Positions 4,692 through 19,762 of a stretch of DNA of 20,564 nucleotides are shown one piece after another. The first letter of the stretch is position 1, and each line of letters opens with the position of its first letter. Source of the stretch: a virus. Made by a program: the position numbers and the translations under genes. Below the pieces are notes generated by a model. The model worked only from the letters and a program-made list of their open reading frames with translations, was not told where the DNA came from and did no database searches. The DNA is taken from IMG/VR virus record IMGVR_UViG_3300031999_000238, positions 1-20,564 of that record; one strand, 5' to 3'.

Positions 4692-5393
4692 ATGAAAATA
4701 CTAACCGCAGTTATATGTTGCGACTTTAAAAATTACTCATTAGATGAGTGCATAAAATCAATCAAAAAAGCAGGTTTTGAAAATGTACTTTTGAATTATG
4801 AGTCATCTGATAATGAACTGCCAAATAACAAAAAACTTTTATTGCTGCTGCCCGAAAATTTACAAGTTTGGCAAATTTCTGAATTTGGAGAATCAGACCG
4901 ACAATTCGACCAAGACCAGGGATATAGACTCCCTAGAATAGTAACTGCACGCAATATGTGTATTGATTACGCTATTAAACATGATTACGATTGGCTATTT
5001 TTTGTAGATTCAGATGTGATAATACCTGAGAATACTATGGAATTGCTATTTGAAAATAACAAATACAAACTTAAATCAGGGTTAGTACATGGTAGAGGCT
5101 CACATCAAGGAGCTCAATATGTGTTTAACAGATTAGGAACAGAGGGCGATTGGACTAAATGCGAGTATTCAACTTGTGGATTCACTGCAATTCATAGAGA
5201 AATATTTAGAAGAGTAAGGTTCAAGTGGGGCGAACCATTTGAAGGCGGTGCATTATGTTCAGAAGATCCACTTTACGGAGCTGATGTAAGACATTTATAC
5301 AACATTAATTGGATGGTAAATACTAAATTGCAAGCTCAACATATTGACAATCCAAACCAACCTTTAACTAACGACCAAGCAAGCCAATACTAA
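4692..5393 (+). CDS. glycosyltransferase, GT-A fold
   Basis: This is a 233-residue putative glycosyltransferase. It starts MKILTAVICCDFKNYSLDEC, a beta strand and helix typical of the nucleotide-sugar-binding half of GT-A enzymes. A DSD metal-binding motif lies at 106-108 within FFVDSDVIIP, preceded by a TARNMCIDYA helix near residue 92, as in GT2-like enzymes. Later, CGFTAIHREIF and CSEDPLYGAD fit the acceptor side, with an acidic residue in the ED pair as possible catalytic base. No membrane segment is present, so it is presumably cytoplasmic. It is the first gene of a five-gene cassette and is followed one base later by an FkbM-type methyltransferase. Donor and acceptor are unknown. Confidence 0.75.
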   Translation: MKILTAVICCDFKNYSLDECIKSIKKAGFENVLLNYESSDNELPNNKKLLLLLPENLQVWQISEFGESDRQFDQDQGYRLPRIVTARNMCIDYAIKHDYDWLFFVDSDVIIPENTMELLFENNKYKLKSGLVHGRGSHQGAQYVFNRLGTEGDWTKCEYSTCGFTAIHREIFRRVRFKWGEPFEGGALCSEDPLYGADVRHLYNINWMVNTKLQAQHIDNPNQPLTNDQASQY

Positions 5394-5394
5394 A

Positions 5395-6009
5395 ATGAAT
5401 ATAGACATAACAAAAGCACTCGAAGGAGTAAGGAGAGGTAGAATATTGCATGTTGGTGCAAACACTGGGCAAGAGTATGAATTGTATAGGCAGTTAGGAT
5501 TTAATAACAATGTATGGGTTGAAATGGATTCAAGTTTAACATCGATATTGTGGGATAAATGCGAAGGGGATTTAGTTTTAAATTGTGCGGTAAGTGATAC
5601 ACCTGCTAAAATAAATGGGTATTACTCAGCATCCAACAATAACGAGTCTGCTAGCCTACTGAAACCATTAAAACACATTGATAAATATAGTAATATTAAC
5701 TTTAATAAAAACTTTAAAGAGATATATCAAACTACTATTGAATGTTTAATATCTACATCAATGATTTATGAGCCAAACGTATTAATCTTAGACATCCAAG
5801 GCAACGAACTAAACGCACTTAAAGGATTAGGTAGATACATAGATAAATTTGATGTAATCATAACAGAAGCATACACAGAAGAACTATACGAGGGTTGCGG
5901 AATGCTCGAGGACATCAAACAACTCTTATCAGAACATTACGACTTTATAGAATACGCTCCTGAAGGAGACAAGGGATGGGGTGACGCACTTTTTAAACTA
6001 AAAAAATAA
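5395..6009 (+). CDS. FkbM-family methyltransferase
   Basis: This 204-residue AdoMet-dependent methyltransferase has motif I HVGANTGQE at residues 19-27 and an acidic residue at the end of strand 2 in VEMDSS. The FkbM signatures LNCAVSD, a serine/asparagine-rich SASNNNESASLL, and LILDIQGNELNALKG follow. Members of this family usually O-methylate sugars or other small glycoconjugate hydroxyls. Its place between glycosyltransferase genes, with one-base gaps on both sides, suggests that it caps or decorates the glycan the cassette builds. The full domain appears present and no truncation is seen. Confidence 0.82.
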   Translation: MNIDITKALEGVRRGRILHVGANTGQEYELYRQLGFNNNVWVEMDSSLTSILWDKCEGDLVLNCAVSDTPAKINGYYSASNNNESASLLKPLKHIDKYSNINFNKNFKEIYQTTIECLISTSMIYEPNVLILDIQGNELNALKGLGRYIDKFDVIITEAYTEELYEGCGMLEDIKQLLSEHYDFIEYAPEGDKGWGDALFKLKK

Positions 6010-6010
6010 C

Positions 6011-6646
6011 ATGATAGCATCAATATTATACAACACACCTGAATTGGTGAAACCACTAAGAGAGCAATACTCAGATATTTATTTAATAGATGGGGGTAGT
6101 GATATCAAGATATTTAATTGTCATTGGAGGATAACACAAAATGAATTTTGGACTGGCAATTGGGATAGAATGTTAAAAGATTTTAAAAGAATAGGCATAA
6201 AATATGTTTGGATGGTCAACTCAGACATATCAAGCGGAATTGATGTTGGATATTATGAAAAGGCAAAAAATATTATGAAAGTAAATGATTTATTTATGCT
6301 TACTCCATCATTTAATAGCCCGCATAAAGTATTCCAACAAATAGAAGATGCGGATGATTATTTATTCCATAATTGGATAGATATGTGCTGCCCAATTATA
6401 GACGTAGAAAAGTACATTGAATTAGGCGGTTTTGACTTACAATTTAAAGGGTATTTTGCTGACATAGACTTGTGCAAAAGAGCAAGGGATAAAGGGTTTG
6501 AAATGGTTATTGATTATTCACACTACTGCGAGCATATCGGAGGTTACACAGTAAACAAAGAAGCCAAACACGAGCAGTCAAACATGGCTGATGCTGAAGT
6601 TCTATGTCAAAAATGGGGAGTTAAACATTATACAGAATTAATATGA
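6011..6646 (+). CDS. glycosyltransferase family 2-like
   Basis: This is a 211-residue GT-A enzyme. The N-terminus MIASILYNTPELVKPLREQY matches the opening of rhamnosyltransferase-like GT2 proteins. The metal site is NSD at 70-72 within WMVNSDI. The C-terminal part has GGFD (139-142) followed by an FADIDLCKRARDKGF segment with D151 and D153, the usual GT2 'GGFDE..F..-E/D-D-x-DLC.R' catalytic region, then an H-x-GGYT motif. No transmembrane helix is present. It overlaps the next gene by four bases (ATGA), indicating translational coupling. Confidence 0.8.
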   Translation: MIASILYNTPELVKPLREQYSDIYLIDGGSDIKIFNCHWRITQNEFWTGNWDRMLKDFKRIGIKYVWMVNSDISSGIDVGYYEKAKNIMKVNDLFMLTPSFNSPHKVFQQIEDADDYLFHNWIDMCCPIIDVEKYIELGGFDLQFKGYFADIDLCKRARDKGFEMVIDYSHYCEHIGGYTVNKEAKHEQSNMADAEVLCQKWGVKHYTELI

Positions 6647-7224
6647 GCAAATTAATAATCATAGTGCCAGTGTCAAGGCCTGAGTTTGTGCCGATAATAA
6701 AACAATATCACTTTGGTTCATGGTATTCGTTATGTGAATGTGATGGGCAATTTGTAGAACTAGTGATTGAAAGAGATAAAGGACTACCTCCAAGCGGAGC
6801 AAACGTAAGGCAAAAATATTTAGAACAATACCGAGGGCAAGATGTGTATTTGCATTGGCTTGATGATGATAATTTAATAAGCCCCCAAGCAATGCAATTT
6901 ATTTACCTATCAATAATAGAACAATTTAATCCTAGAGTATTTATGTTTGGTCAAATATGGTGGGCAAATGGGCCTAAAAGATTAAACGCTACACCCAAAA
7001 ATTGCAAACCATGCCAATGCGACATTGCTCAATTATTCGTACATGCCTCGTTACTAGATGGCATAAATTGGGGCAATAGATATGAGAATGATGGAGATTT
7101 AATCAAAGAACTATACCAAAAGCACCCCGATAAATTTAACTTTTACAACGATGTCGATGTGTGGTATAACGCACTCAGACCAAATCAAGGTTTATACGAA
7201 GGACAAATTAAATTAATAGCATGA
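6643..7224 (+). CDS. putative glycosyltransferase, GT-A-like
   Basis: This is a 193-residue protein that begins MSKLIIIVPVSRPEF, a strand typical of GT2-like enzymes, and carries a DDD at 74-76 within HWLDDDNLISP, consistent with the DXD metal-binding motif. A GANVRQKYLEQ helix precedes it, as in the TARN-type helices of this fold. The C-terminal half, with a C-x-x-C-x-C cluster in NCKPCQCDIAQLF, is unusual and could bind a metal or form a structural site. Start and end overlap both neighbouring genes by four bases. I am fairly sure of the fold and less so of the activity. Confidence 0.65.
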   Translation: MSKLIIIVPVSRPEFVPIIKQYHFGSWYSLCECDGQFVELVIERDKGLPPSGANVRQKYLEQYRGQDVYLHWLDDDNLISPQAMQFIYLSIIEQFNPRVFMFGQIWWANGPKRLNATPKNCKPCQCDIAQLFVHASLLDGINWGNRYENDGDLIKELYQKHPDKFNFYNDVDVWYNALRPNQGLYEGQIKLIA

Positions 7225-8177
7225 CAAAATTAAGAATACTAGCAGTCTGTGCAATGCCAACAGACCCGACTTCATGGTATAGAGCCTGGGGTGTTTATGG
7301 AGATATAATGAAGCGGTCAGACATTGAGTTTGATTGCTATGAAGATTTACAAAAAGTATCTTGGAAGCATCTAATCAAATACGATTTAGTCATATTTCAA
7401 AGGGCATTAGGGAACGCTACTCAGTTAGCTGAGTATGTCACTCAACTTGGCATCCCTTATGTCTATGATTTGGATGATAATTTTTGGGAGATACCAAGTC
7501 ACTCATCAATTAAATCAACATACAATTTTAAAGTATTAGGCACAATGGAGAAGATGATGAAAGGTGCTAGGGCTATAACTGTATCAACTAAAGCTCTAGG
7601 TGACTACATTGAGAACAAACTAGGTATTAAATGCAACGTAATTAACAATGGAATTGATTTAAACAAGTACAAGATTCAACCATATAACAAGGTAGGCAAA
7701 ACTATTTGGCGAGGTTCATCAACTCACATAGATGATGTAAGGCAGTTCTCATCATTCTATGAATCTGTAGCAAAACAAGTTAATCAAATAGAATTTTGGG
7801 GTCATGATTGCGTTCAAGGTTCGCCAAAATTAGACATTAAAAATAGTAAGTTTTTTGCTGGAGAAGATTTAGTTAGATACTTCAGATTACTTCAAACTTC
7901 AAACATAGCTCACATACTTTGCACATTAGTAGATGATGAGTTCAACAGAGCCAAATCTAACATAGCATGGATAGAAGCGACACTTGCAGGTGGTGTGTGT
8001 GTTGGTAATGGAGTAGGTGAGTTTGCAGATAAGCAAATATTAATGAATGATTTTAATATAGAGCATGATTATCAAGGTCATTACATTAGGAGTAAGCAAC
8101 TGATACATGATAAGTACAACCTATCAGAACTTAATGACAAGAGAATTGAACTTTATAAAAAAGTAGTTGGTAAATAA
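7221..8177 (+). CDS. glycosyltransferase, GT-B fold (GT4-like)
   Basis: This is a 318-residue enzyme of the GT1/GT4 type. The N-terminal Rossmann half has TSWYRAWGVY near 17-26 and VYDLDDNFWE at 81-90. The linker contains STKALGDYI and NNGIDLNKY, the usual 'V..NGID...Y' site. The C-terminal half has WRGSSTHIDD near 163 and FNRAKSNIAWIEA from 241, followed by GGVCVGNGVGE, which together bind the nucleotide-sugar diphosphate in this family. GT4 enzymes are retaining transferases. It closes the sugar cassette, and its stop codon shares one base with the start of terL, so the cassette and packaging genes are likely on one transcript. Confidence 0.8.
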   Translation: MTKLRILAVCAMPTDPTSWYRAWGVYGDIMKRSDIEFDCYEDLQKVSWKHLIKYDLVIFQRALGNATQLAEYVTQLGIPYVYDLDDNFWEIPSHSSIKSTYNFKVLGTMEKMMKGARAITVSTKALGDYIENKLGIKCNVINNGIDLNKYKIQPYNKVGKTIWRGSSTHIDDVRQFSSFYESVAKQVNQIEFWGHDCVQGSPKLDIKNSKFFAGEDLVRYFRLLQTSNIAHILCTLVDDEFNRAKSNIAWIEATLAGGVCVGNGVGEFADKQILMNDFNIEHDYQGHYIRSKQLIHDKYNLSELNDKRIELYKKVVGK

Positions 8178-9871
8178 TGGCTAAGACACTTGACATAAAA
8201 CAATACGATAGCTATGCAATAGATGTAATTGCAGGTAGAGAGCCTGCTTGTAATTGGGTAGTTCTTGCTTGTAAAAGATACTTAAACGATAAGCAAAGAA
8301 AGGATTTAAAGTTTGATGAGTTTAAAGTTGATTTAGTTATCAACTTTATTCAACTTTTGAAGCAAAGCAAGGGTGAGTTTGGAGGTCAAAAATTAATACT
8401 TCAAAGATGGCAAAAGTTTATTATTGCAAATATATTTGGATTCTATAAGACCAATGAAGCAGGCAAGCTAGTCAGAAGGTTTAAAAAGGTTTATATAGAG
8501 ATACCTCGAAAGAATGGTAAGACTACAATGGCAGCAGCAATAGCTTTATACATGTACATATTAGATCGAGAAGAAGGCCCTGAGATTTACTTTGCAGCAA
8601 CCAAGAAAGACCAAGCTAGAATATGCTATGATGAAGCTGCATCAATGATTAGATTTAATACTGAACTATCAAGCCACCTAACAATTCAACGGTCATCTAA
8701 TAGGGTTTTATTTGCCAATGGTAAGTTTGGATTTATGACTCCACTATCAGCAGACTCAGACAAGATGAGTGGACTTAATCCACATTGTGCAATATGTGAT
8801 GAGGTGCATGAGATGTCAAATAGTGGTATTATTGATTTGCTTACTACTGCAATTGGAGCTAGAAGGAATCCATTAATATTTGAGATAACCACCGCAGGCA
8901 AAAGGTTAGATTCTATTTGCTATGAACATTCAAAAATGACTGAAGAAATATTGCAAGGTATTAAAGAAGATGATGGATGGATGGGTATTAAATATAGTAT
9001 TGATGAGGGAGATGATTGGACTCTACCTGCAACCTGGAGAAAAGCAAACCCCAATTTAGGAGTAAGTAAGAAGTGGGATTATATGTACTCGGAATATCAA
9101 GAGGCAACGAACAGAGCAAGCAAGGTAAACGTATTTAAACAACTTGACTTAAACGTATGGACTTTTGGTGGCAAAGGTTGGATAACAGATGAGCAATGGA
9201 TGGATTGTGAAGATAGAATGAGTGATGAAGATTTGAAAAACTTACCAATGTGGGCAGGGTTAGACTTGGCAGAAACTAGAGACTTCTCAGCTCTATCTAT
9301 GGTGTTCAAATTGCCTGATGGCAACTTTTATTTAAAGGTTAAGATGTGGTGTCCTGAAGAAAATGCTATTGAACTTGCAAAACAATCTCAACCTTTCATA
9401 TTGAATTGGGCAAACGATGGGTGGATTGATTTTACTGATGGAAACGTAACTCACTTTGATAAGATTGAAGATGATATTTTAAAAGAGTTAAAGAAGTTTA
9501 ATTGTCAAGCACTCGCATTTGATAGAAGATATGCAGGCACAATGCCAAACCATTTGAACGAACAAGGCATAAATGCAACGGCCTACGCACAAACCGCATC
9601 AATGATGTCACAACCTATTAAAGAGATTGAAAGACTTGTAATATCTAAAAAGATTAGGCACGATGGTAGCCCATCAATGAGGTGGATGATGTCGAATGCG
9701 AAGGTAAAAGAAAACCAAGGAGATGAAGTTAAGATAGTAAGAGGAAAAGAAGGAGGTAAGATAGATGCAGTTATCTCATCAATCATGGCAGTAGGTGAGA
9801 TGATGAGTGATGAGTTAAAAGACTATACAAAAAAATCAATTTACAATAACAGAGACATAAGATTTATATAA
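8177..9871 (+). CDS. terL: terminase large subunit, HK97-type
   Basis: This 564-residue DNA-packaging motor has an N-terminal ATPase and a C-terminal nuclease. Walker A is PRKNGKTT at 110-117 and Walker B is AICDE at 205-209, with E209 as the catalytic glutamate. The RNase H-like nuclease acidic residues are D363 (in WAGLDLAETRDF), D449 (in LAFDRRYAG) and D530 (in KIDAVIS). The N-terminal region before residue 60 (VVLACKRYLND) is typical of the phage terminase_1 (HK97/P27-partner) family. Length is normal and all key residues are present. It starts at ATG 8177 inside the stop of the GT-B gene and ends one base into terS, so all three are coupled. Confidence 0.96.
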   Translation: MAKTLDIKQYDSYAIDVIAGREPACNWVVLACKRYLNDKQRKDLKFDEFKVDLVINFIQLLKQSKGEFGGQKLILQRWQKFIIANIFGFYKTNEAGKLVRRFKKVYIEIPRKNGKTTMAAAIALYMYILDREEGPEIYFAATKKDQARICYDEAASMIRFNTELSSHLTIQRSSNRVLFANGKFGFMTPLSADSDKMSGLNPHCAICDEVHEMSNSGIIDLLTTAIGARRNPLIFEITTAGKRLDSICYEHSKMTEEILQGIKEDDGWMGIKYSIDEGDDWTLPATWRKANPNLGVSKKWDYMYSEYQEATNRASKVNVFKQLDLNVWTFGGKGWITDEQWMDCEDRMSDEDLKNLPMWAGLDLAETRDFSALSMVFKLPDGNFYLKVKMWCPEENAIELAKQSQPFILNWANDGWIDFTDGNVTHFDKIEDDILKELKKFNCQALAFDRRYAGTMPNHLNEQGINATAYAQTASMMSQPIKEIERLVISKKIRHDGSPSMRWMMSNAKVKENQGDEVKIVRGKEGGKIDAVISSIMAVGEMMSDELKDYTKKSIYNNRDIRFI

Positions 9872-10356
9872 TGGGAAAAGGAAGATACAAATTGCCGCTT
9901 GAAACAAAGCAAAACAAAGGCACACTAAGACAAAGCCGAGATGCTGATAAAGGATTTGATGCACCTGAATTAGATGCTACTAAATCAATATCCACTATGA
10001 CAGAAAGAGAACAAAAGTGGTTTGATTCAATGTATAATATACTTGAGCCAACAGGAGTATTGAAAGAGTCAGACCTTTACTCACTTGAGATACTTGCTAA
10101 GTCTAGGGCCACAATGGAGATGTGCGATGAGCATATAAGGGTAAACGGATTGACTATAACAGTAGAAACTAGAGATGGAAGTTCAGAAAAGAAAAGTCCA
10201 TATCATCAAATCTATATGGATGCTTATAATATTTTCAATCAAATGGCGGCTAAGTTTGGAATGAATCCAAGTGACAGAGGCAGAATAGCTAGTCCTAAAT
10301 CGCAAGAAGATGATGAAAGCGACTTGAGTAAATTATTAAGAGGAAGGAACGACTAA
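9871..10356 (+). CDS. terS: terminase small subunit, P27 family
   Basis: This is a 161-residue DNA-recognition subunit of the packaging motor. After a basic N-terminus it has the P27-family helical pattern: TEREQKWFDSMYNILEPTGV, then KESDLYSLEILAKS, then a short glycine-containing turn with ITVETRDGSSEKKSPYHQIY. It closes with KFGMNPSDRGRI, the conserved 'fGltPssR.rl' signature. It follows terL with a one-base overlap, reversed from the common terS-terL order. The acidic stretch EDDESD before the end may contact the large subunit. Function is assigned by family pattern and location. Confidence 0.85.
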   Translation: MGKGRYKLPLETKQNKGTLRQSRDADKGFDAPELDATKSISTMTEREQKWFDSMYNILEPTGVLKESDLYSLEILAKSRATMEMCDEHIRVNGLTITVETRDGSSEKKSPYHQIYMDAYNIFNQMAAKFGMNPSDRGRIASPKSQEDDESDLSKLLRGRND

Positions 10357-14155: not shown

Positions 14156-14761
14156 ATGAAGATAACAGGCACATATCAATTCACAGACAGAGCAGCTCAT
14201 GATGAGCTTGTAGTTACTTTATCTGAAATGAAAACTCATTTAAAAATTGAGTCATCATTTACAGATGAGGATGATTATATAGAGGCATTGATATTAGCAG
14301 CTCAAGACCAAGTAGAGTCTATGACATGGAGATACTTGAATGAAAATACAGTATCTTTTAATGATGATAATTGGCCTGAAAATAATATTATATATTTAGT
14401 TCGTGGGCCAGCATGGAAGGTTGAATCTTTCACTTATAAAAATACTGATGGTAACGATGTTGCAATGTCAACAGGGGTAGATTATAACTTTGATATTTAT
14501 AACGAGGTTGGGAGGGTTAATTTAATCACTAGACCTACATTAAATAAAGATGTTTTAAACCCAATAACCATCACTTATAAAACTAGGTGGAACGTAAATG
14601 ATGATTCCAATATCATTCCTCAAGCAGTCAAAACCGCTATTAAATTAATGGGCGGACATTGGTATGAGAATAGGCAAGATGTTCAAGTAGGTCAATCGGT
14701 GGCCGATGTACCAAAGACATCTGAATACATTTTAAACCCATATAAAATAAGAGTATTTTAA
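14156..14761 (+). CDS. head-tail connector protein, gp6-like
   Basis: This 201-residue protein forms the ring beneath the portal. The helical opening VTLSEMKTHLKIESSFTDED, followed by DYIEALILAAQDQVESMTWR, is the standard N-terminal pattern of the HK97 gp6-like connector family. The middle is beta-rich (YLVRGPAWKVESFTYKNTDG, ITITYKTRW) and the end again helical (IPQAVKTAIKLMGGHWYENR). It ends exactly where the head-closure gene begins. Position after the capsid gene and before head closure is the conserved order in this phage type. Confidence 0.85.
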   Translation: MKITGTYQFTDRAAHDELVVTLSEMKTHLKIESSFTDEDDYIEALILAAQDQVESMTWRYLNENTVSFNDDNWPENNIIYLVRGPAWKVESFTYKNTDGNDVAMSTGVDYNFDIYNEVGRVNLITRPTLNKDVLNPITITYKTRWNVNDDSNIIPQAVKTAIKLMGGHWYENRQDVQVGQSVADVPKTSEYILNPYKIRVF

Positions 14762-15094
14762 ATGAACATAGGGAAACTTGATAGAAAAATAGATATTTAT
14801 ACGTTCACAGAAACGACAAACAATGAAGGCGGATTTACAACATCTGAAACTTTATTCAAATCGATGTGGGCAAAAGTAGCTAATTCAAGTCCAGCAGGTA
14901 AAGAATATACTAACGATAGGAAGCAAGGAGTAGATACAATGATATTCACAGTACGCTATGGATATGCAGTTGATTTACTTGATACAATGTTATTAAAGTA
15001 CATGGATGAAACATATACAATATTAACTATTCAAGAGGCGGTTCAATATGGTAGAAAAATAGCATTAGAAATATTAGCACAAATAAAACGATAA
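14762..15094 (+). CDS. head closure / head-tail joining protein (SPP1 gp16-like)
   Basis: This 110-residue protein begins MNIGKLDRKIDIYTFTETTN, then GGFTTSETLFKSMWAKV. That 'G.ldrrI.i......d..G......w.....vWA.i' layout marks the phage head-tail joining (SPP1 gp16/HK97 gp7) family. The late DETYTILTIQEAVQYGRKIAL segment is also typical. It forms the stopper ring that closes the filled head. Overlap with the following gene is one base. Confidence 0.88.
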   Translation: MNIGKLDRKIDIYTFTETTNNEGGFTTSETLFKSMWAKVANSSPAGKEYTNDRKQGVDTMIFTVRYGYAVDLLDTMLLKYMDETYTILTIQEAVQYGRKIALEILAQIKR

Positions 15095-15510
15095 TGGCAG
15101 TAGAAGGCATAAACGAAGTTCTAAAAGCATTGGCTGAAGCAGTCCCAACAGGTGATGAAGTTCAATCAGTGTTAAAAGTTCAAGCGGATTTTCTTATTGC
15201 TAAAATAAAAGAAAAAGTCCCTGTTGATTCAGGTAATTTAAAAGATTCAATTCAATTTTTTAAACCTAAGAAAAAGAACTATTTAGTAGTTGGCCCTAAG
15301 TATAGAAAAGGCTCAAAAGGGTTTAAAAGAAAAGGTGCAAAAAGTGGGGGTAACCATGCTAACTTAGTCGAGTATGGATTTACTCATAAAAGCGGGAAGG
15401 TAATACCACCTAGACCATTTATGAGACCAGCATTTGACCAAAACAAGGAAGCTATTTTAAATATGATGGAGTCAAAACTAGGGGATTTAGTAGTTAAGAA
15501 ATTTGCATAA
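15094..15510 (+). CDS. HK97 gp10-like tail completion protein
   Basis: This is a 138-residue protein of the HK97 gp10 family. Diagnostic segments are KIKEKVPVDSGNLKDSIQF near 47-65, the basic GPKYRKGSKGFKRKGAKSGG stretch, HANLVEYGFTH, and PPRPFMRPAFDQNKE near the end. Members act at the neck or tail completion stage. The gene sits between head closure and the DUF3168-like gene with one-base overlaps on each side, the expected order. Confidence 0.9.
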   Translation: MAVEGINEVLKALAEAVPTGDEVQSVLKVQADFLIAKIKEKVPVDSGNLKDSIQFFKPKKKNYLVVGPKYRKGSKGFKRKGAKSGGNHANLVEYGFTHKSGKVIPPRPFMRPAFDQNKEAILNMMESKLGDLVVKKFA

Positions 15511-15893
15511 TGAGTATTAAGACTGAAATATTTGGAGCATTAACAAATATACTTGGTACAGGGGTATCGGTTTACCAGGTCAACAGACCAACTACCAATT
15601 ATAATATGCCTTGTGTTATATTCAATCAAATATCAACAGGCCCAAATAATACTAAAGATGGAGCAAGTGTAACAGATGATACTAGATTTCAAATTAATAT
15701 ACACACCACTCAATCGGCTGAGTGCAACACAATAGCCGATAACATAAGAAGCGGATTTGATTATTACTCAGGTGGCAATATACAAATAGTTTTTTTCGAT
15801 GACCAACAAGATGCCGATTTTGTAATGAATGCAGGCACATTGGGAGAATATTCAATAAGTCAAGACTATATAATAAGATACAACAGACAATAA
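15510..15893 (+). CDS. DUF3168-like tail completion / terminator protein
   Basis: This is a 127-residue protein. The start MSIKTEIFGALTNI, the LGTGVSVYQVNRPTTN segment, the YNMPCVIFNQIS motif and the RFQINIHTTQSAECNTIADN helix match the DUF3168 family, whose characterised relatives (lambda gpU / SPP1 gp17-like) cap the tail and join it to the head. It is followed one base later by a very small ORF and then by the tube genes, which is the usual place for this function. Confidence 0.82.
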   Translation: MSIKTEIFGALTNILGTGVSVYQVNRPTTNYNMPCVIFNQISTGPNNTKDGASVTDDTRFQINIHTTQSAECNTIADNIRSGFDYYSGGNIQIVFFDDQQDADFVMNAGTLGEYSISQDYIIRYNRQ

Positions 15894-15894
15894 A

Positions 15895-16092
15895 ATGGCA
15901 AGATATAAACTACAAAAAGACTATACCAACTCACAAGGCAGAGTTATAGAAGCAGGAACTATAATAGAAATACACGTTTCAGATATTGATAAATACACAA
16001 AGCTAGGGTGTATTGGTATTCCAAAAACAGAAAAGCCTGAAAACGCTATGGCAAAGCAACCAAAAAAAGAAACAAGAAAAATAATAAAATAA
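15895..16092 (+). CDS. small basic hypothetical protein
   Basis: This is a 65-residue protein. The N-terminal half (MARYKLQKDYTNSQGRVIEAGTI) reads like a small beta barrel of about 40 residues, and the end is a lysine-rich tail (KQPKKETRKIIK). I do not recognise it. One-base gaps on both sides place it in the structural operon. A minor neck or tail protein is possible, but only its position supports that. Confidence 0.6.
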   Translation: MARYKLQKDYTNSQGRVIEAGTIIEIHVSDIDKYTKLGCIGIPKTEKPENAMAKQPKKETRKIIK

Positions 16093-16093
16093 A

Positions 16094-16483
16094 ATGGCAG
16101 TAATATTAAACGGAACTTCATGTGTCATTAAAGTTGATACTGACACTATATCTTATGGCAAAACCGCTAACTTCAAAAGAGCGATGGCAACCAGGGAGAC
16201 AACAACAAAGGATTCAGCAGGATGGAAAGGTACTGCTGAAGCAATTAAATCAGGCTCATTCGATTTCAAAGGTTTAGTGTCTATGAACATCGGGTATGGG
16301 TTTATTGATTTATTCGCTATTGCAGCTAACAGACAACCATGCAGCGTTGAATACTACCAAGATGGTGTAACATTTACCGCTAACTGTTATATAACATCAA
16401 TGACTCAATCAGCGGAGGTTGAGGGTAGTGTTGAATTTGATGCCTCATTTGAGATTAATGGATTAATAACATCAGCAAACTAA
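16094..16483 (+). CDS. major tail tube protein, copy 1
   Basis: This 129-residue protein has the beta-rich pattern of siphovirus tail tube proteins: MAVILNGTSCVIKVDTD, then a TTTKDSAGWKGTAEA loop, SGSFDFKGLV, and a closing strand set QSAEVEGSVEFDASFEING. The 'TTTKDS.G...A.....W/S.S.dF.G' signature is shared with TP901-1-type tail proteins. It is clearly paralogous to the next gene, with roughly 40% identical residues by my hand alignment. It could form the tube alone or together with the second copy. No C-terminal Ig domain is attached. Confidence 0.82.
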   Translation: MAVILNGTSCVIKVDTDTISYGKTANFKRAMATRETTTKDSAGWKGTAEAIKSGSFDFKGLVSMNIGYGFIDLFAIAANRQPCSVEYYQDGVTFTANCYITSMTQSAEVEGSVEFDASFEINGLITSAN

Positions 16484-16490
16484 AAAAATT

Positions 16491-16901
16491 ATGTCAGTAA
16501 TATTAAACGGAACAGAAGTAAAACTATACATCGGGACAGGTGTAATAGCTAATGGCAAGAGTGCTAATCTTAAATTTTCAATGTCACCAAGAGACACAAC
16601 TACCAAGGATTCTAATGGTAATAGAGAACTTGCAGAAGGATTAATGAGTGCATCATTTGACTTCAAAGGATTGCTCGATCCAAATGCAACACCTTATGGA
16701 TTTTGGGAGCTTAACGATGCGTTAGAAAATAGAACTGTTATGACAGTTGTATTTAAGCAATTATTTGCAGGAGGTGGGGCTAAAAAATACACCGCATCTG
16801 CCTATTTGACATCATTAGACCAATCAGCGGAGGTAGAAGGTAATGTAGAATTTGGAGCATCATTCGAGGTAGATGGCCCAATGACTCAAGGAGCAGCATA
16901 A
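16491..16901 (+). CDS. major tail tube protein, copy 2 (paralogue)
   Basis: This is a 136-residue protein. It shares with the preceding gene the start M-x-VILNGT, the TTTKDSNG loop, SASFDFKGLL, and QSAEVEGNVEFGASFEVDG. It differs by a longer central insertion, KQLFAGGGAKKYTAS. Nucleotide similarity is still visible at both ends, for example the 16-base string TAATATTAAACGGAAC in each gene. The pair arose by tandem duplication and has since diverged. It is the last gene before the terminator at 16933. One copy may form the tube and the other a tail-end ring or minor subunit. Confidence 0.82.
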   Translation: MSVILNGTEVKLYIGTGVIANGKSANLKFSMSPRDTTTKDSNGNRELAEGLMSASFDFKGLLDPNATPYGFWELNDALENRTVMTVVFKQLFAGGGAKKYTASAYLTSLDQSAEVEGNVEFGASFEVDGPMTQGAA

Positions 16902-16932
16902 AGAACTCAGCATAGTAGTTATGTTGTTATTG

Positions 16933-16972
16933 AGGGGTGGCGGTATTGATTTATTTGCTACCCCTTTTTTTT
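16933..16972 (+). terminator. intrinsic terminator after the tail-tube genes
   Basis: AGGGGTGGC (16933-16941) pairs with GCTACCCCT (16957-16965), nine pairs with one G-U, around a 15-base loop, followed by eight T (16965-16972). It ends the long structural transcript. The end of its T-run also supplies the TTTG of the next promoter. Confidence 0.88.
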
Positions 16973-17001
16973 GATAACATAAATATTGTGCTTTAAATTT
17001 G
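16970..17001 (+). promoter_or_regulatory. Bacteroidota consensus promoter
   Basis: TTTG at 16970-16973 and TAAATTTG at 16994-17001 are separated by exactly 20 bases. This matches the primary-sigma consensus of Bacteroidota (TTTG-N19-21-TAnnTTTG). Transcription should begin near 17008, leaving a leader of under 20 bases before the ATG at 17026. It would drive the tail chaperone, tape measure and following genes. Confidence 0.72.
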
Positions 17002-17025
17002 TCAATCAATAACAATAATATAAAT

Positions 17026-17385
17026 ATGAAACAAGTAATTATTATCAACGAAAAAGAACATCCATTTGCATTGACATTTGGAGCTCTCCACAGATTAAAA
17101 AGAGACCATGGTATTTTAAACATCAATAAAGTCTTTTCAGAAATAGAAGAGGGTGGTTTTGAACCATTATGCAAAGTAGTTTTTGAAGGGGTAAAAAGTG
17201 GATATGGCAAAGAAAATAAAGAGAAAGACTTTACTCATAGCTATGATTCATTTGCTGACACTATTGACATTAAAGACATGAATATACTGGCTAATGCGAT
17301 AGTTGAGGCAATGACAGGTAAGCAAGAAACCAAACAAATTGAAGAAGGGAAAGCGGAGGTGGTAAGCCCAAACGAACAGAAATAG
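17026..17385 (+). CDS. tail assembly chaperone, G-like (unshifted product)
   Basis: This is a 119-residue protein. I chose the ATG at 17026; the TTG upstream at 16999 overlaps the promoter -7 element. The sequence (VIIINEKEHPFALTFGALHR, then GGFEPLCKVVFEGVKSGYG) fits the short first product of tail assembly chaperone pairs of the lambda gpG type, which coat the tape measure and recruit tube subunits. It lies between the tube genes and the tape measure gene, the conserved position. The last codons contain C_CCA_AAC at 17367-17373, where part of the ribosomes would shift by -1 and continue into the T-like extension. Those that do not shift stop at TAG 17383-17385. Confidence 0.8.
   Translation: MKQVIIINEKEHPFALTFGALHRLKRDHGILNINKVFSEIEEGGFEPLCKVVFEGVKSGYGKENKEKDFTHSYDSFADTIDIKDMNILANAIVEAMTGKQETKQIEEGKAEVVSPNEQK
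17367..17373 (+). promoter_or_regulatory. -1 frameshift slippery heptamer C_CCA_AAC
   Basis: The heptamer CCCAAAC lies in the correct phase: the zero frame reads AGC CCA AAC, fitting X_XXY_YYZ. After slippage the tRNAs re-pair on CCC AAA and translation continues with CGA ACA GAA in the -1 frame. The two frames are both open from 17343 to 17385, and the heptamer is inside that window. No strong downstream stem is obvious; a weak GATG/CATC pairing lies near 17391-17413. Confidence 0.78.
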
Positions 17386-17678
17386 ACTGGGATGAGTTGG
17401 AACAATCTGCATCATACTATGGGTTAAGAATTGGGGAGATATACGATTATACACCACGAGAATGGGCAAATTATATCAAAGGTAAAGACTCAGCTAAACA
17501 TGAACAATTGGAATACTCAAGAATGTTTTTTACTACGTTAGTAAATGCCCAACTATCCAAACCAATGCAACCTATTGCACTATTTCCTTTCCATTGGGAT
17601 AAAGAAACACAAAAAGAATATAAACTATCTGAGTACGACAGAATAAAAAAAGAATTAGAATCCAATAAATTAATGTAA
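17373..17678 (+). CDS. tail assembly chaperone T-like extension (made by -1 frameshift)
   Basis: This is the -1-frame part of the fused G-T chaperone: 101 residues after the slip, 217 in all when joined to residues 1-116 of the upstream gene. The frame is open from 17343 and has no ATG near its front; the only early start-like codon is TTG at 17397, which would drop the conserved lead RTEIDWDEL. The segment EIDWDELEQSASYYGL, then EIYDYTPREWANYIKG, resembles the T domain of phage chaperones in which an aromatic 'W-x-x-L...G....i...t..E' pattern is typical. The stop shares a base with the tape measure start. Confidence 0.75.
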   Translation, partial: RTEIDWDELEQSASYYGLRIGEIYDYTPREWANYIKGKDSAKHEQLEYSRMFFTTLVNAQLSKPMQPIALFPFHWDKETQKEYKLSEYDRIKKELESNKLM

Positions 17679-19762
17679 TGGCAGGTAGAAGTTTAAATAT
17701 ATCATTAGTAGCAACACTAACACCACTTGAGAAATCACTTGTAGCGGTTGGTAAAATGATGACTGATTTTGCTCAGTCTATTGCCTCGACCGATGCCAAA
17801 CTAGCTGATTCTATAAGGTCCTCGGTTGATACAATGAACACCGAACTTGCCAAGGTTAAGCAATCATTTGACAATGTAGGTAAGGATGGAGACGATGCAG
17901 GAAAGAAAGCAGGAGGTAGTTTAAGGACTCAACTAAGGGCAGCAACAGTTGAGGCCCAAAAAGCATCAGAAGAATTTGGAAGAATGTCTCCTCAATTTAT
18001 TGCAGCCGCTCAAAAGGCGGCCATGTTAAAAGATGAGATGGGGGATGTAGGTCAAGCAATTGATGCTTTAAACCCTGATGCTAAATTCAAAGCAGTATTA
18101 GGAGTGCTACAAGGTGTTACAGGTGGATTAATGGCTGTGCAAGGGGGAATGGCAGCATTTGGAATTGAAAGCGAAAATGCTCAAAAAACAATGGCTAAAC
18201 TTCAAGGCTTAATGGCTCTGTCTGAAGGAATAAATCAACTTGGAGGGTTAGCAGATTCAATGGGGGCATTTAAAACCCAAATAACAGCAGCAGTTATAGA
18301 GATGGGAGCAATGAAAGCAGCCATAGCAGCAACAGGTATAGGCTTACTTATTATTGGAGTAGGGTTACTTGCAGCCAATTGGGACTCAGTTGTAGAATCG
18401 ATGTCTGCTGCTGAAGTTAAGACGGAACGACTTGCAGAGGCTCAGAAAAAAATGAATGAGAAGTTTGAAAAGCAAGTAGAAGAGGGGCAGAAAAAAGAAA
18501 ATGATGCATTTGAAAAGAGTATTAAAATTGAAAAAAAATTAGGAGATAATAAAATTAAGGCGGCTGACAATGCTTTAAAAATGGCACAAGCCCAAGGTAA
18601 ACCCGAATCAGAACTTTTAAAACTTGGACTAGAAAAAAACAAAGCTGAACAAGAAGCCATAAAATTAATAATTGACAAGGCATCTCAGAATAATACCCAA
18701 ATGGCTTTGGAGTATAAACTTAAAGAAGACTTAAAACAAAAACAAGTTGAATACAATATCATGCAAGCTGATGGTGCTACTAAAGTAATTGGGCTGAATA
18801 AAAAAGCATCAAAAGAAATCAGAGAAAATGCATCCAAGAAACTAAAAGATGATCAAAATGCATTAAAAGCCTATGAAGAAAACGTGGAGGCGGGTATGCA
18901 GTATAATAAAAATATACTAGATCAAAAAAAGAAAGATGAAGATGATGTTCAAAAAGCATACGAAGAAAACCTTGAAGCTGGTATGCAATATAATAAACAA
19001 ATTATTGACCAAAAACTTCAATCAGTAAAAGACAATCAAAAAAAGGAACTTGAATTAATTACAAAATTCGGGATGGATAAACAAGATGTTGAGGAGGAGT
19101 TTGCAAAAATTAAAGCTGAAAATCCACTGCTTAACGATAAAGAGATATACGACCAAATGGCTACTAATTTTGAAAATGCTGCATTTAGAATGGTTAATGC
19201 AGGGCAACTAATTCAGCAAGCCTTTGCAAATTTAGCAACAAATGGCATTGTATTATTGGCTACTACGATAGGAGAGTTGATGGAAGGTGGAGGTAGTTTA
19301 GATTCATTCTTTAACTCACTTCTTTCAATGGTCGCTGATGCAGCGGTGCAATTAGGTAAGCAGTTTGTACAAATGGGGATATCAGCACTAATTATACAGA
19401 GTCAACTATTTATAAACCCTGCAGCAGCTATTGCAGCAGGTGCGGCTTTAATTGCAATAGGATCAGCAGCTAAATCAAGCATGGCAAACTTAGGCAAAGA
19501 GGAAACTACAGGATTTGCAGCAGGTGGTGTAGTATATGGCCCTACCAATGCTTTAATTGGTGAATACTCAGGTGCAAGTAATAACCCTGAAGTAGTTGCA
19601 CCATTAGATAAATTACAAGGTATATTAATGAGGTCAATGGGTGGCGGTGGCGGTGGCAATGTAATGGTGCAAGGTGTGATAAGTGGCAACAATATAAGAA
19701 TATCACAGGCTAAAAATTCAAGAGATTATAGTAGAATAACAGGCAGAGAAACAAGATTTTAA
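17678..19762 (+). CDS. tape measure protein
   Basis: This 694-residue protein sets tail length and fills the tube before DNA exit. It is long, alanine-, lysine- and glutamine-rich, and largely helical. A hydrophobic stretch lies at about 214-234 (ATGIGLLIIGVGLLAANW). Charged coiled coil covers about 240-480, and a second hydrophobic block lies at about 565-595 (PAAAIAAGAALIAIGS). A glycine run near 655 precedes a beta-like end. Residues 397-425 and 426-454 are a 29-residue tandem repeat, each beginning KAYEEN. No lysozyme or peptidase domain is seen. By the usual rule of about 0.15 nm per residue, the tail would be near 100 nm. It follows the chaperone with a one-base overlap, as in most siphoviruses. 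Confidence 0.9.
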   Translation: MAGRSLNISLVATLTPLEKSLVAVGKMMTDFAQSIASTDAKLADSIRSSVDTMNTELAKVKQSFDNVGKDGDDAGKKAGGSLRTQLRAATVEAQKASEEFGRMSPQFIAAAQKAAMLKDEMGDVGQAIDALNPDAKFKAVLGVLQGVTGGLMAVQGGMAAFGIESENAQKTMAKLQGLMALSEGINQLGGLADSMGAFKTQITAAVIEMGAMKAAIAATGIGLLIIGVGLLAANWDSVVESMSAAEVKTERLAEAQKKMNEKFEKQVEEGQKKENDAFEKSIKIEKKLGDNKIKAADNALKMAQAQGKPESELLKLGLEKNKAEQEAIKLIIDKASQNNTQMALEYKLKEDLKQKQVEYNIMQADGATKVIGLNKKASKEIRENASKKLKDDQNALKAYEENVEAGMQYNKNILDQKKKDEDDVQKAYEENLEAGMQYNKQIIDQKLQSVKDNQKKELELITKFGMDKQDVEEEFAKIKAENPLLNDKEIYDQMATNFENAAFRMVNAGQLIQQAFANLATNGIVLLATTIGELMEGGGSLDSFFNSLLSMVADAAVQLGKQFVQMGISALIIQSQLFINPAAAIAAGAALIAIGSAAKSSMANLGKEETTGFAAGGVVYGPTNALIGEYSGASNNPEVVAPLDKLQGILMRSMGGGGGGNVMVQGVISGNNIRISQAKNSRDYSRITGRETRF
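18866..19039 (+). repeat. 87-base in-frame tandem duplication in the tape measure gene
   Basis: Two 29-codon units, 18866-18952 and 18953-19039, both start KAYEEN-x-EAGMQYNK and agree at 20 of 29 residues by hand count. Many codons differ synonymously (GCC/GCA, TAT/TAC), so the duplication is old enough to have drifted while the peptide was kept. Confidence 0.75.

Follow-up and report, generated by a model that had tools for sequence, protein, structure and literature searches.

A glycosyltransferase and methyltransferase gene cassette upstream of terL in uncultured phages, shared by divergent lineages in different gene orders

Known virus-borne glycan enzymes and the locus before terL

Sets of glycosyltransferases (GTs) and methyltransferases carried by viruses are known from other systems, with which we compare here a five-gene cassette, four predicted glycosyltransferases (GT1 to GT4) and one FkbM-family methyltransferase, located immediately before the gene of the terminase large subunit (TerL) in the IMG/VR virus record IMGVR_UViG_3300031999_000238 (20,564 bases, analysed as a whole and called the window below). 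In cluster O mycobacteriophages, three tandem glycosyltransferases lie downstream of an O-methyltransferase and are described as modifying the capsid and the tail tube (PMC11600133, citing Freeman et al., 2023). As far as the loci can be compared by the description in that source, both comprise several tandem GTs and an O-methyltransferase in a tailed siphovirus, whereas they differ in the host group and in the FkbM type of the methyltransferase in the window; moreover, a capsid and tail tube glycan is reported for the mycobacteriophages while the window cassette is known from genes alone. The statement in an earlier note on this DNA that no described phage system has such a set was therefore too strong. 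In PBCV-1, domain 1 of A064R is a capsid glycosyltransferase and the full protein also has a sugar O-methyltransferase domain (PMC9614988). Here a viral GT-A enzyme (the best fold match of GT3) and sugar O-methyltransferases (A064R, A061L) build and cap a capsid glycan, but PBCV-1 is a eukaryotic algal virus (Chlorovirus), its domains are fused in one protein, the product is an N-glycan and the sequence identity is 13–17%. STIV A197, proposed to glycosylate the major capsid protein (MCP) (PMC10551542), is likewise a minimal viral GT-A enzyme and the best PDB sequence match of GT1, although it is a single enzyme of an archaeal virus and the match is marginal (E 0.005).

Two further systems resemble the cassette more loosely. 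The gtrABC serotype-conversion operons of temperate phages are also phage-borne clusters of glycan-modifying genes; however, gtr needs a flippase, a bactoprenol-glucosyl transferase and a membrane-bound GT, whereas the cassette consists of five soluble enzymes with none of these, and a gtr-type operon was rejected since no membrane proteins are encoded. The nearest cultured relatives of GT4 are phrog_7162 GT-B proteins of Stephanstirmvirinae (Phapecoctavirus and others), which also stand in a run of GT genes, but they are only about 27% identical, belong to 150 kb phages, lie beside primase/polymerase genes and have no FkbM partner in the stretch read. The concept of a virus-borne GT and methyltransferase set is thus known from other viruses, and what is new here is the enzyme families, the putative FkbM cap and the gene-by-gene gain, loss and reordering.

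One gene set in two orders

The cassette (4692–8177) consists of five intact, tightly packed open reading frames in the order GT1-FkbM-GT2-GT3-GT4 that run into terL; the junctions are two 1-base gaps and overlaps of 4, 4 and 1 base, the last one between the GT4 stop and the terL start. The coordinates and junctions given in the earlier note were correct, and its description of the enzymes as GT-A and GT-B glycosyltransferases plus an FkbM methyltransferase is supported by profiles, fold matches and homologues. Its wording of an inserted cassette is only partly right, since the G+C content (34.4% vs 34.0%) gives no hint that the genes came in recently; a recent acquisition, as judged from base composition, was accordingly rejected.

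The strongest evidence for a module comes from a divergent phage lineage. A scan with an MCP alignment led to the record L241, and a GT2 alignment that included L241 led to L252, L253, L254 and L256; earlier scans with two-sequence alignments gave no further cassette relatives. L253 carries all five cassette genes upstream of the terminase in the order GT1-GT4-GT3-FkbM-GT2, and on the 3' side of GT2 it has reverse-strand genes, an HNH-like gene and TerS, with TerL present in the 98% identical L241. Identity of the L253/L241 cassette proteins to those of the window is 53% for GT1, 48% for FkbM, 54% for GT2, 52% for GT3 and 44% for GT4, compared with 31% for TerL, 24% for TerS, 32% for the portal, 35% for the protease and 46% for MCP. 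The presence of the five-gene set in such divergent phages argues for a co-inherited functional module and supports the earlier idea of one module for the synthesis of a short methylated oligosaccharide; the lack of synteny that the earlier note would have taken as a sign of random acquisition does not apply, as the five genes co-occur in both lineages. The cassette is a real, selected module whose members are kept together while their order differs, which points to either transfer between the lineages or a stronger constraint. In the unrelated 54 kb phage contig L256, homologues of GT1 and GT2 (38% and 35% identical) lie close to tail genes, together with a class I methyltransferase and a GT17 enzyme. 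In the L241 lineage, a Gene product 88 family protein (PF17338) is encoded between cassette and terminase (L241 3332–4075, minus strand), and a PAS-domain protein lies near peptidase-like and holin-like genes (L257 1985–2740).

Near-relative contigs with TerL 96–97% identical show two kinds of cassette content. In L002 and L003 the order is GT1-GT2-GT3-GT4-terL, and FkbM is the sole missing cassette gene; its absence is precise, and the GT1 stop and the GT2 start meet at 8 bases that correspond to either edge of FkbM in the window. In L004 and L005, GT4 is the sole cassette gene before terL, and in front of it stands MKNKILTAVI-FF-NGQIKLIA-stop, an in-frame remnant of 20 codons that begins like GT1 and ends like GT3. 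Both contigs carry this deletion scar although their DNA differs by 8.5%, and a single assembly error can therefore not account for it. Between these contigs dN/dS is 0.20 for GT4 and 0.03 for TerL, so that purifying selection continues to act on GT4 where it stands by itself, for which reason GT4 is proposed to act first or independently. The GT4-only phage L174 has head genes 92–98% identical to those of the window, with 59% for the tape measure and 41% for the tail tip. Cassette dN/dS values lie between 0.06 and 0.23, indicating purifying selection in all comparisons, and the recurrence of the cassette together with this selection is far beyond chance.

The cassette is also rare. Among 89 loci that contain TerL and 3.5 kb or more of sequence before it, cassette homologues were found in L002/L003 and in the L241 record only (the latter counted as two loci, L241 and L255). 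GT1, GT3 and their homologues had no tblastn match in 50,697 phage records, where GT2 had one weak match. In sampled Bacteroidia genomes, the GT4 profile matched 0 of 295 at E 1e-8, the GT3 profile 1 of 295 (weak) and the GT1 profile 6 of 395 (marginal); the GT2 C-terminal motif was matched in 250 of 395, so such a search can find matches in this group. The set is therefore of a phage type that cultured phages largely lack. The gene starts of the window have no evident Shine-Dalgarno motif and a close MCP relative occurs in an uncultured Bacteroidia genome (L150), both of which point to a likely Bacteroidota host.

The five enzymes and their surroundings

FkbM is the only cassette protein above a Pfam gathering cut-off (39.1 bits to PF05050, cut-off 22.7), as is its L253 copy (41.6 bits); it falls just below the cut-off of TIGR01444 (35.1 vs 37.7 bits). 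The S-adenosylmethionine (SAM)-binding HVGANT and the signature LDIQGxEL are invariant in the window, L241 and L253, and a PDB profile search gave no match. FkbM enzymes are O-methyltransferases of sugars or small molecules, and the gene product is probably an O-methyltransferase for a sugar.

GT1 to GT3 are supported as GT-A-type glycosyltransferases by sequence matches and, for GT2 and GT3, by predicted models, although they are weak or absent in profile libraries, and these matches give the fold and not the acceptor. GT1 matches Anp1 (E 1.2e-4) and Glycos_transf_2 (E 0.0035) in Pfam, both below cut-off, and STIV A197 (2c0n) in the profile search of the PDB (E 0.0049); its V-D-S-D lies at residues 105–108, and D-S-D and S-E-D-P are invariant in four phages. 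GT2 carries N-S-D in place of a strict D-x-D and found no match in the PDB profile search; its homologue in L256 scores 25.6 bits against PF00535 (cut-off 23.3), and its AlphaFold model (pLDDT 74, pTM 0.78) matches the fucosyltransferase WrtF and the rhamnosyltransferase RmlT in Foldseek (prob 1.00). GT3 has no Pfam match and only unconvincing matches in the PDB profile search; the best folds for its predicted model (pLDDT 67, pTM 0.70) are those of the PBCV-1 capsid glycosyltransferase (2p73/2p72/2p6w, E 1.6e-5, prob 1.00, TM 0.47), and alignment with L241 and L173 shows that D-x-D is kept, with D or I as the middle residue. The C-x-x-C-x-C cluster of GT3 (residues 121–126), which the earlier note had singled out as an oddity, proved not to be conserved: it reads C-x-x-A-x-C in L241/L253, and L173, a distant homologue, does not have it; a conserved metal site was rejected because of the middle cysteine lost in L241/L253. 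In L173 (913–2103), a protein of a sampled Bacteroidia genome, the GT3-like domain is followed by about 200 residues that resemble a methyltransferase.

GT4 belongs by sequence with phrog_7162, a GT-B-like glycosyltransferase family (E 1.4e-22), with a match to PF13439 below cut-off (E 3.2e-4) and none in the PDB profile search; its putative donor-site glutamate motif E252-A-T-x-A-G-G is conserved as far as L253. The C-terminal third of GT4 occurs as two allele types that are shared crosswise (the window with L004, L002 with L005), a pattern that looks like recombination directly 5' of terL.

The window is a fragment and has no end repeats. It is a small siphovirus-like region of an uncultured phage, in the order Lin1244-like replication protein, small genes, cassette, TerL, TerS (Terminase_4), portal, S78 protease and HK97-type MCP, followed by connectors, two tail tube genes, a tape measure and the start of a tail-tip protein, the tail names being partly assigned from gene order. 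A single 722-residue protein (598–2766) joins a helicase-like N-terminal part to an N6/N4 DNA methylase. TerS (9871–10356) sits after TerL, while in phi39:1, AS1 and L241 it sits before it. The tandem tail-tube-like genes (16094–16901) encode proteins 49% identical to each other, the second being 100% and the first 87% identical to the L174 counterpart; in the distant L241 only one such gene was noticed.

Table 1. Positions of the cassette genes and of related features in the window and in relatives
Feature	Record	Position	Strand	Basis
GT1, small GT-A-type glycosyltransferase, DxD motif V-D-S-D	window	4692..5393	+	weak Pfam, STIV A197 profile match, invariant motifs
FkbM-family SAM-dependent methyltransferase, probably sugar O-methyltransferase	window	5395..6009	+	PF05050 above cut-off, motifs conserved
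GT2, GT-A-type, GT2/rhamnosyltransferase-like (NSD, GGFD..F.GYFADIDLC)	window	6011..6646	+	L256 homologue, AlphaFold and Foldseek
GT3, minimal GT-A-type glycosyltransferase (LDDDN)	window	6643..7224	+	predicted model, fold matches, alignment
GT4, GT-B-type glycosyltransferase	window	7221..8177	+	phrog_7162 match, E252-A-T-x-A-G-G conserved
Terminase large subunit (TerL)	window	8177..9871	+	PF20441 E 5e-39, PF03354 E 2e-28, phrog_9
FkbM left edge, CTAAAATG region; point of FkbM absence in L002/L003	window	5391..5398	+	window/L002 blastn edges, junction sequences
FkbM right edge, TAACATGA; 8 bases identical to L002 GT1/GT2 junction	window	6007..6014	+	window/L002 blastn edges, junction sequences
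GT1	L253	6696-7370		
GT4	L253	7377-8324		
GT3	L253	8330-8866		
FkbM, followed by a gap of about 215 bases	L253	8869-9474		
GT2	L253	9692-10303		
Tail-tip comparison	window vs L174	19762-20562 vs 14358-17780		

Candidate acceptors and what the module may mean

That the cassette has a glycosylating function as such is highly probable; what it glycosylates is far less certain. None of the five proteins has a transmembrane segment (no hydrophobic 19-residue window above 1.6; control positive), so the acceptors should be cytoplasmic, namely virion proteins, DNA or glycan precursors. Between virion proteins and surface precursors sequence alone does not decide, and precedent, the position before terL and solubility favour the virion; the closest solved relatives of GT1 and GT3, which are viral GTs linked to capsid glycosylation, offer weak evidence on the target. 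We put a virion protein as the target at an even chance, and only just below this the fuller proposal that soluble cytoplasmic enzymes build a short, optionally O-methylated glycan on an acceptor that is most likely a head or tail protein of the virion. In this proposal, host nucleotide sugars would be the donors and the acceptor would be made from the same late transcript as the cassette; GT4, the probable founding transferase, would add the first sugar or act alone, GT1, GT2 and GT3 would extend or branch the glycan, and FkbM would methylate a hydroxyl as its cap. Several points weigh against it. The GT1 match in the PDB is marginal (E 0.005), the model of GT3 reaches only moderate confidence (pLDDT 67, with TM 0.47 to its best match), and GT-A folds are common to enzymes with all kinds of acceptors, which is why the resemblance to capsid GTs counts for little; MCP and tail tube carry no serine/threonine-rich C-terminal extension; and opposite-strand genes separate the cassette from TerS in L241/L253, so that co-transcription with the head genes is not general. 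The virion acceptor, like co-expression, the order of action and the sugars used, is something we infer.

A possible but doubtful alternative is that the cassette alters the host surface polysaccharide during infection or lysogeny, by placing methylated side groups on lipid- or nucleotide-linked cytoplasmic precursors, which would block superinfection or the loss of progeny to spent cells. GT2 does come from a broad family that is frequent in Bacteroidia, loci of antigen variation typically gain and lose single genes, and L174, where little of the cassette is left, differs in tail tip and tape measure, as a connection with the receptor would lead one to expect, in this one case. The cassette nevertheless has no flippase, polyprenyl-phosphate transferase or membrane protein, unlike gtrABC, no integrase turned up among those genes of the fragments that were read, and given the marginal, weak or absent Bacteroidia matches of GT1, GT3 and GT4, these are not ordinary host surface-glycan enzymes. 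Glycosylation of modified bases of the phage DNA, conferring resistance to restriction, is very unlikely. Phages are known to use GTs in this way, DNA methylase genes occur in the window and in L253, and the Phapecoctavirus relatives of GT4 adjoin a protein with a weak TET-associated glycosyltransferase (TAGT) match (E 0.001, below cut-off); yet no TAGT match was found in the cassette phages, FkbM enzymes are established as sugar or small-molecule O-methyltransferases, and no thymidylate-synthase-type hydroxymethylase (PF00303) was found in the window, L241, L253, L174, L256, L002 or the Phapecoctavirus genome, where controls worked; this disfavours DNA hypermodification, although all cassette records are fragments. 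A search for Tet_JBP gave no match, with its control equally silent.

It is improbable, too, that a small molecule or a host protein (e.g., a glycolipid or a defence factor) is modified: FkbM and GT-B enzymes serve many acceptors, but no precedent with this set was found and no supporting partner gene was seen. Least probable of all, the genes may be passing cargo that has no set role in the phage and is exchanged at a permissive site before terL. Their presence varies among phages that are nearly identical in TerL and a deletion scar exists, which would agree with such swapping; on the other hand, the five families are kept together across a lineage split with TerL, TerS, portal and protease at 24–35% identity, and all genes are under purifying selection, GT4 even after the deletion.

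Returning to glycosylation of the virion, an unlikely extension of it is that the cassette represents a modular, exchanged "glycotype" locus of uncultured, probably Bacteroidota-infecting phages, in which the virion glycan would be varied by gain, loss and reordering of whole GT and methyltransferase genes around GT4 as an invariant primer, giving a serotype-like variation matched to the tail tips. To our knowledge, only a few groups of tailed phages have been shown to glycosylate their virions. If the cassette glycosylates the particle, the phenomenon would also include small siphoviruses that infect a different group of hosts and use other enzymes, and the natural series of five genes, four genes and GT4 only, together with the reordered copy, offers ready-made tests of the first enzyme, the cap and the purpose of the glycan.

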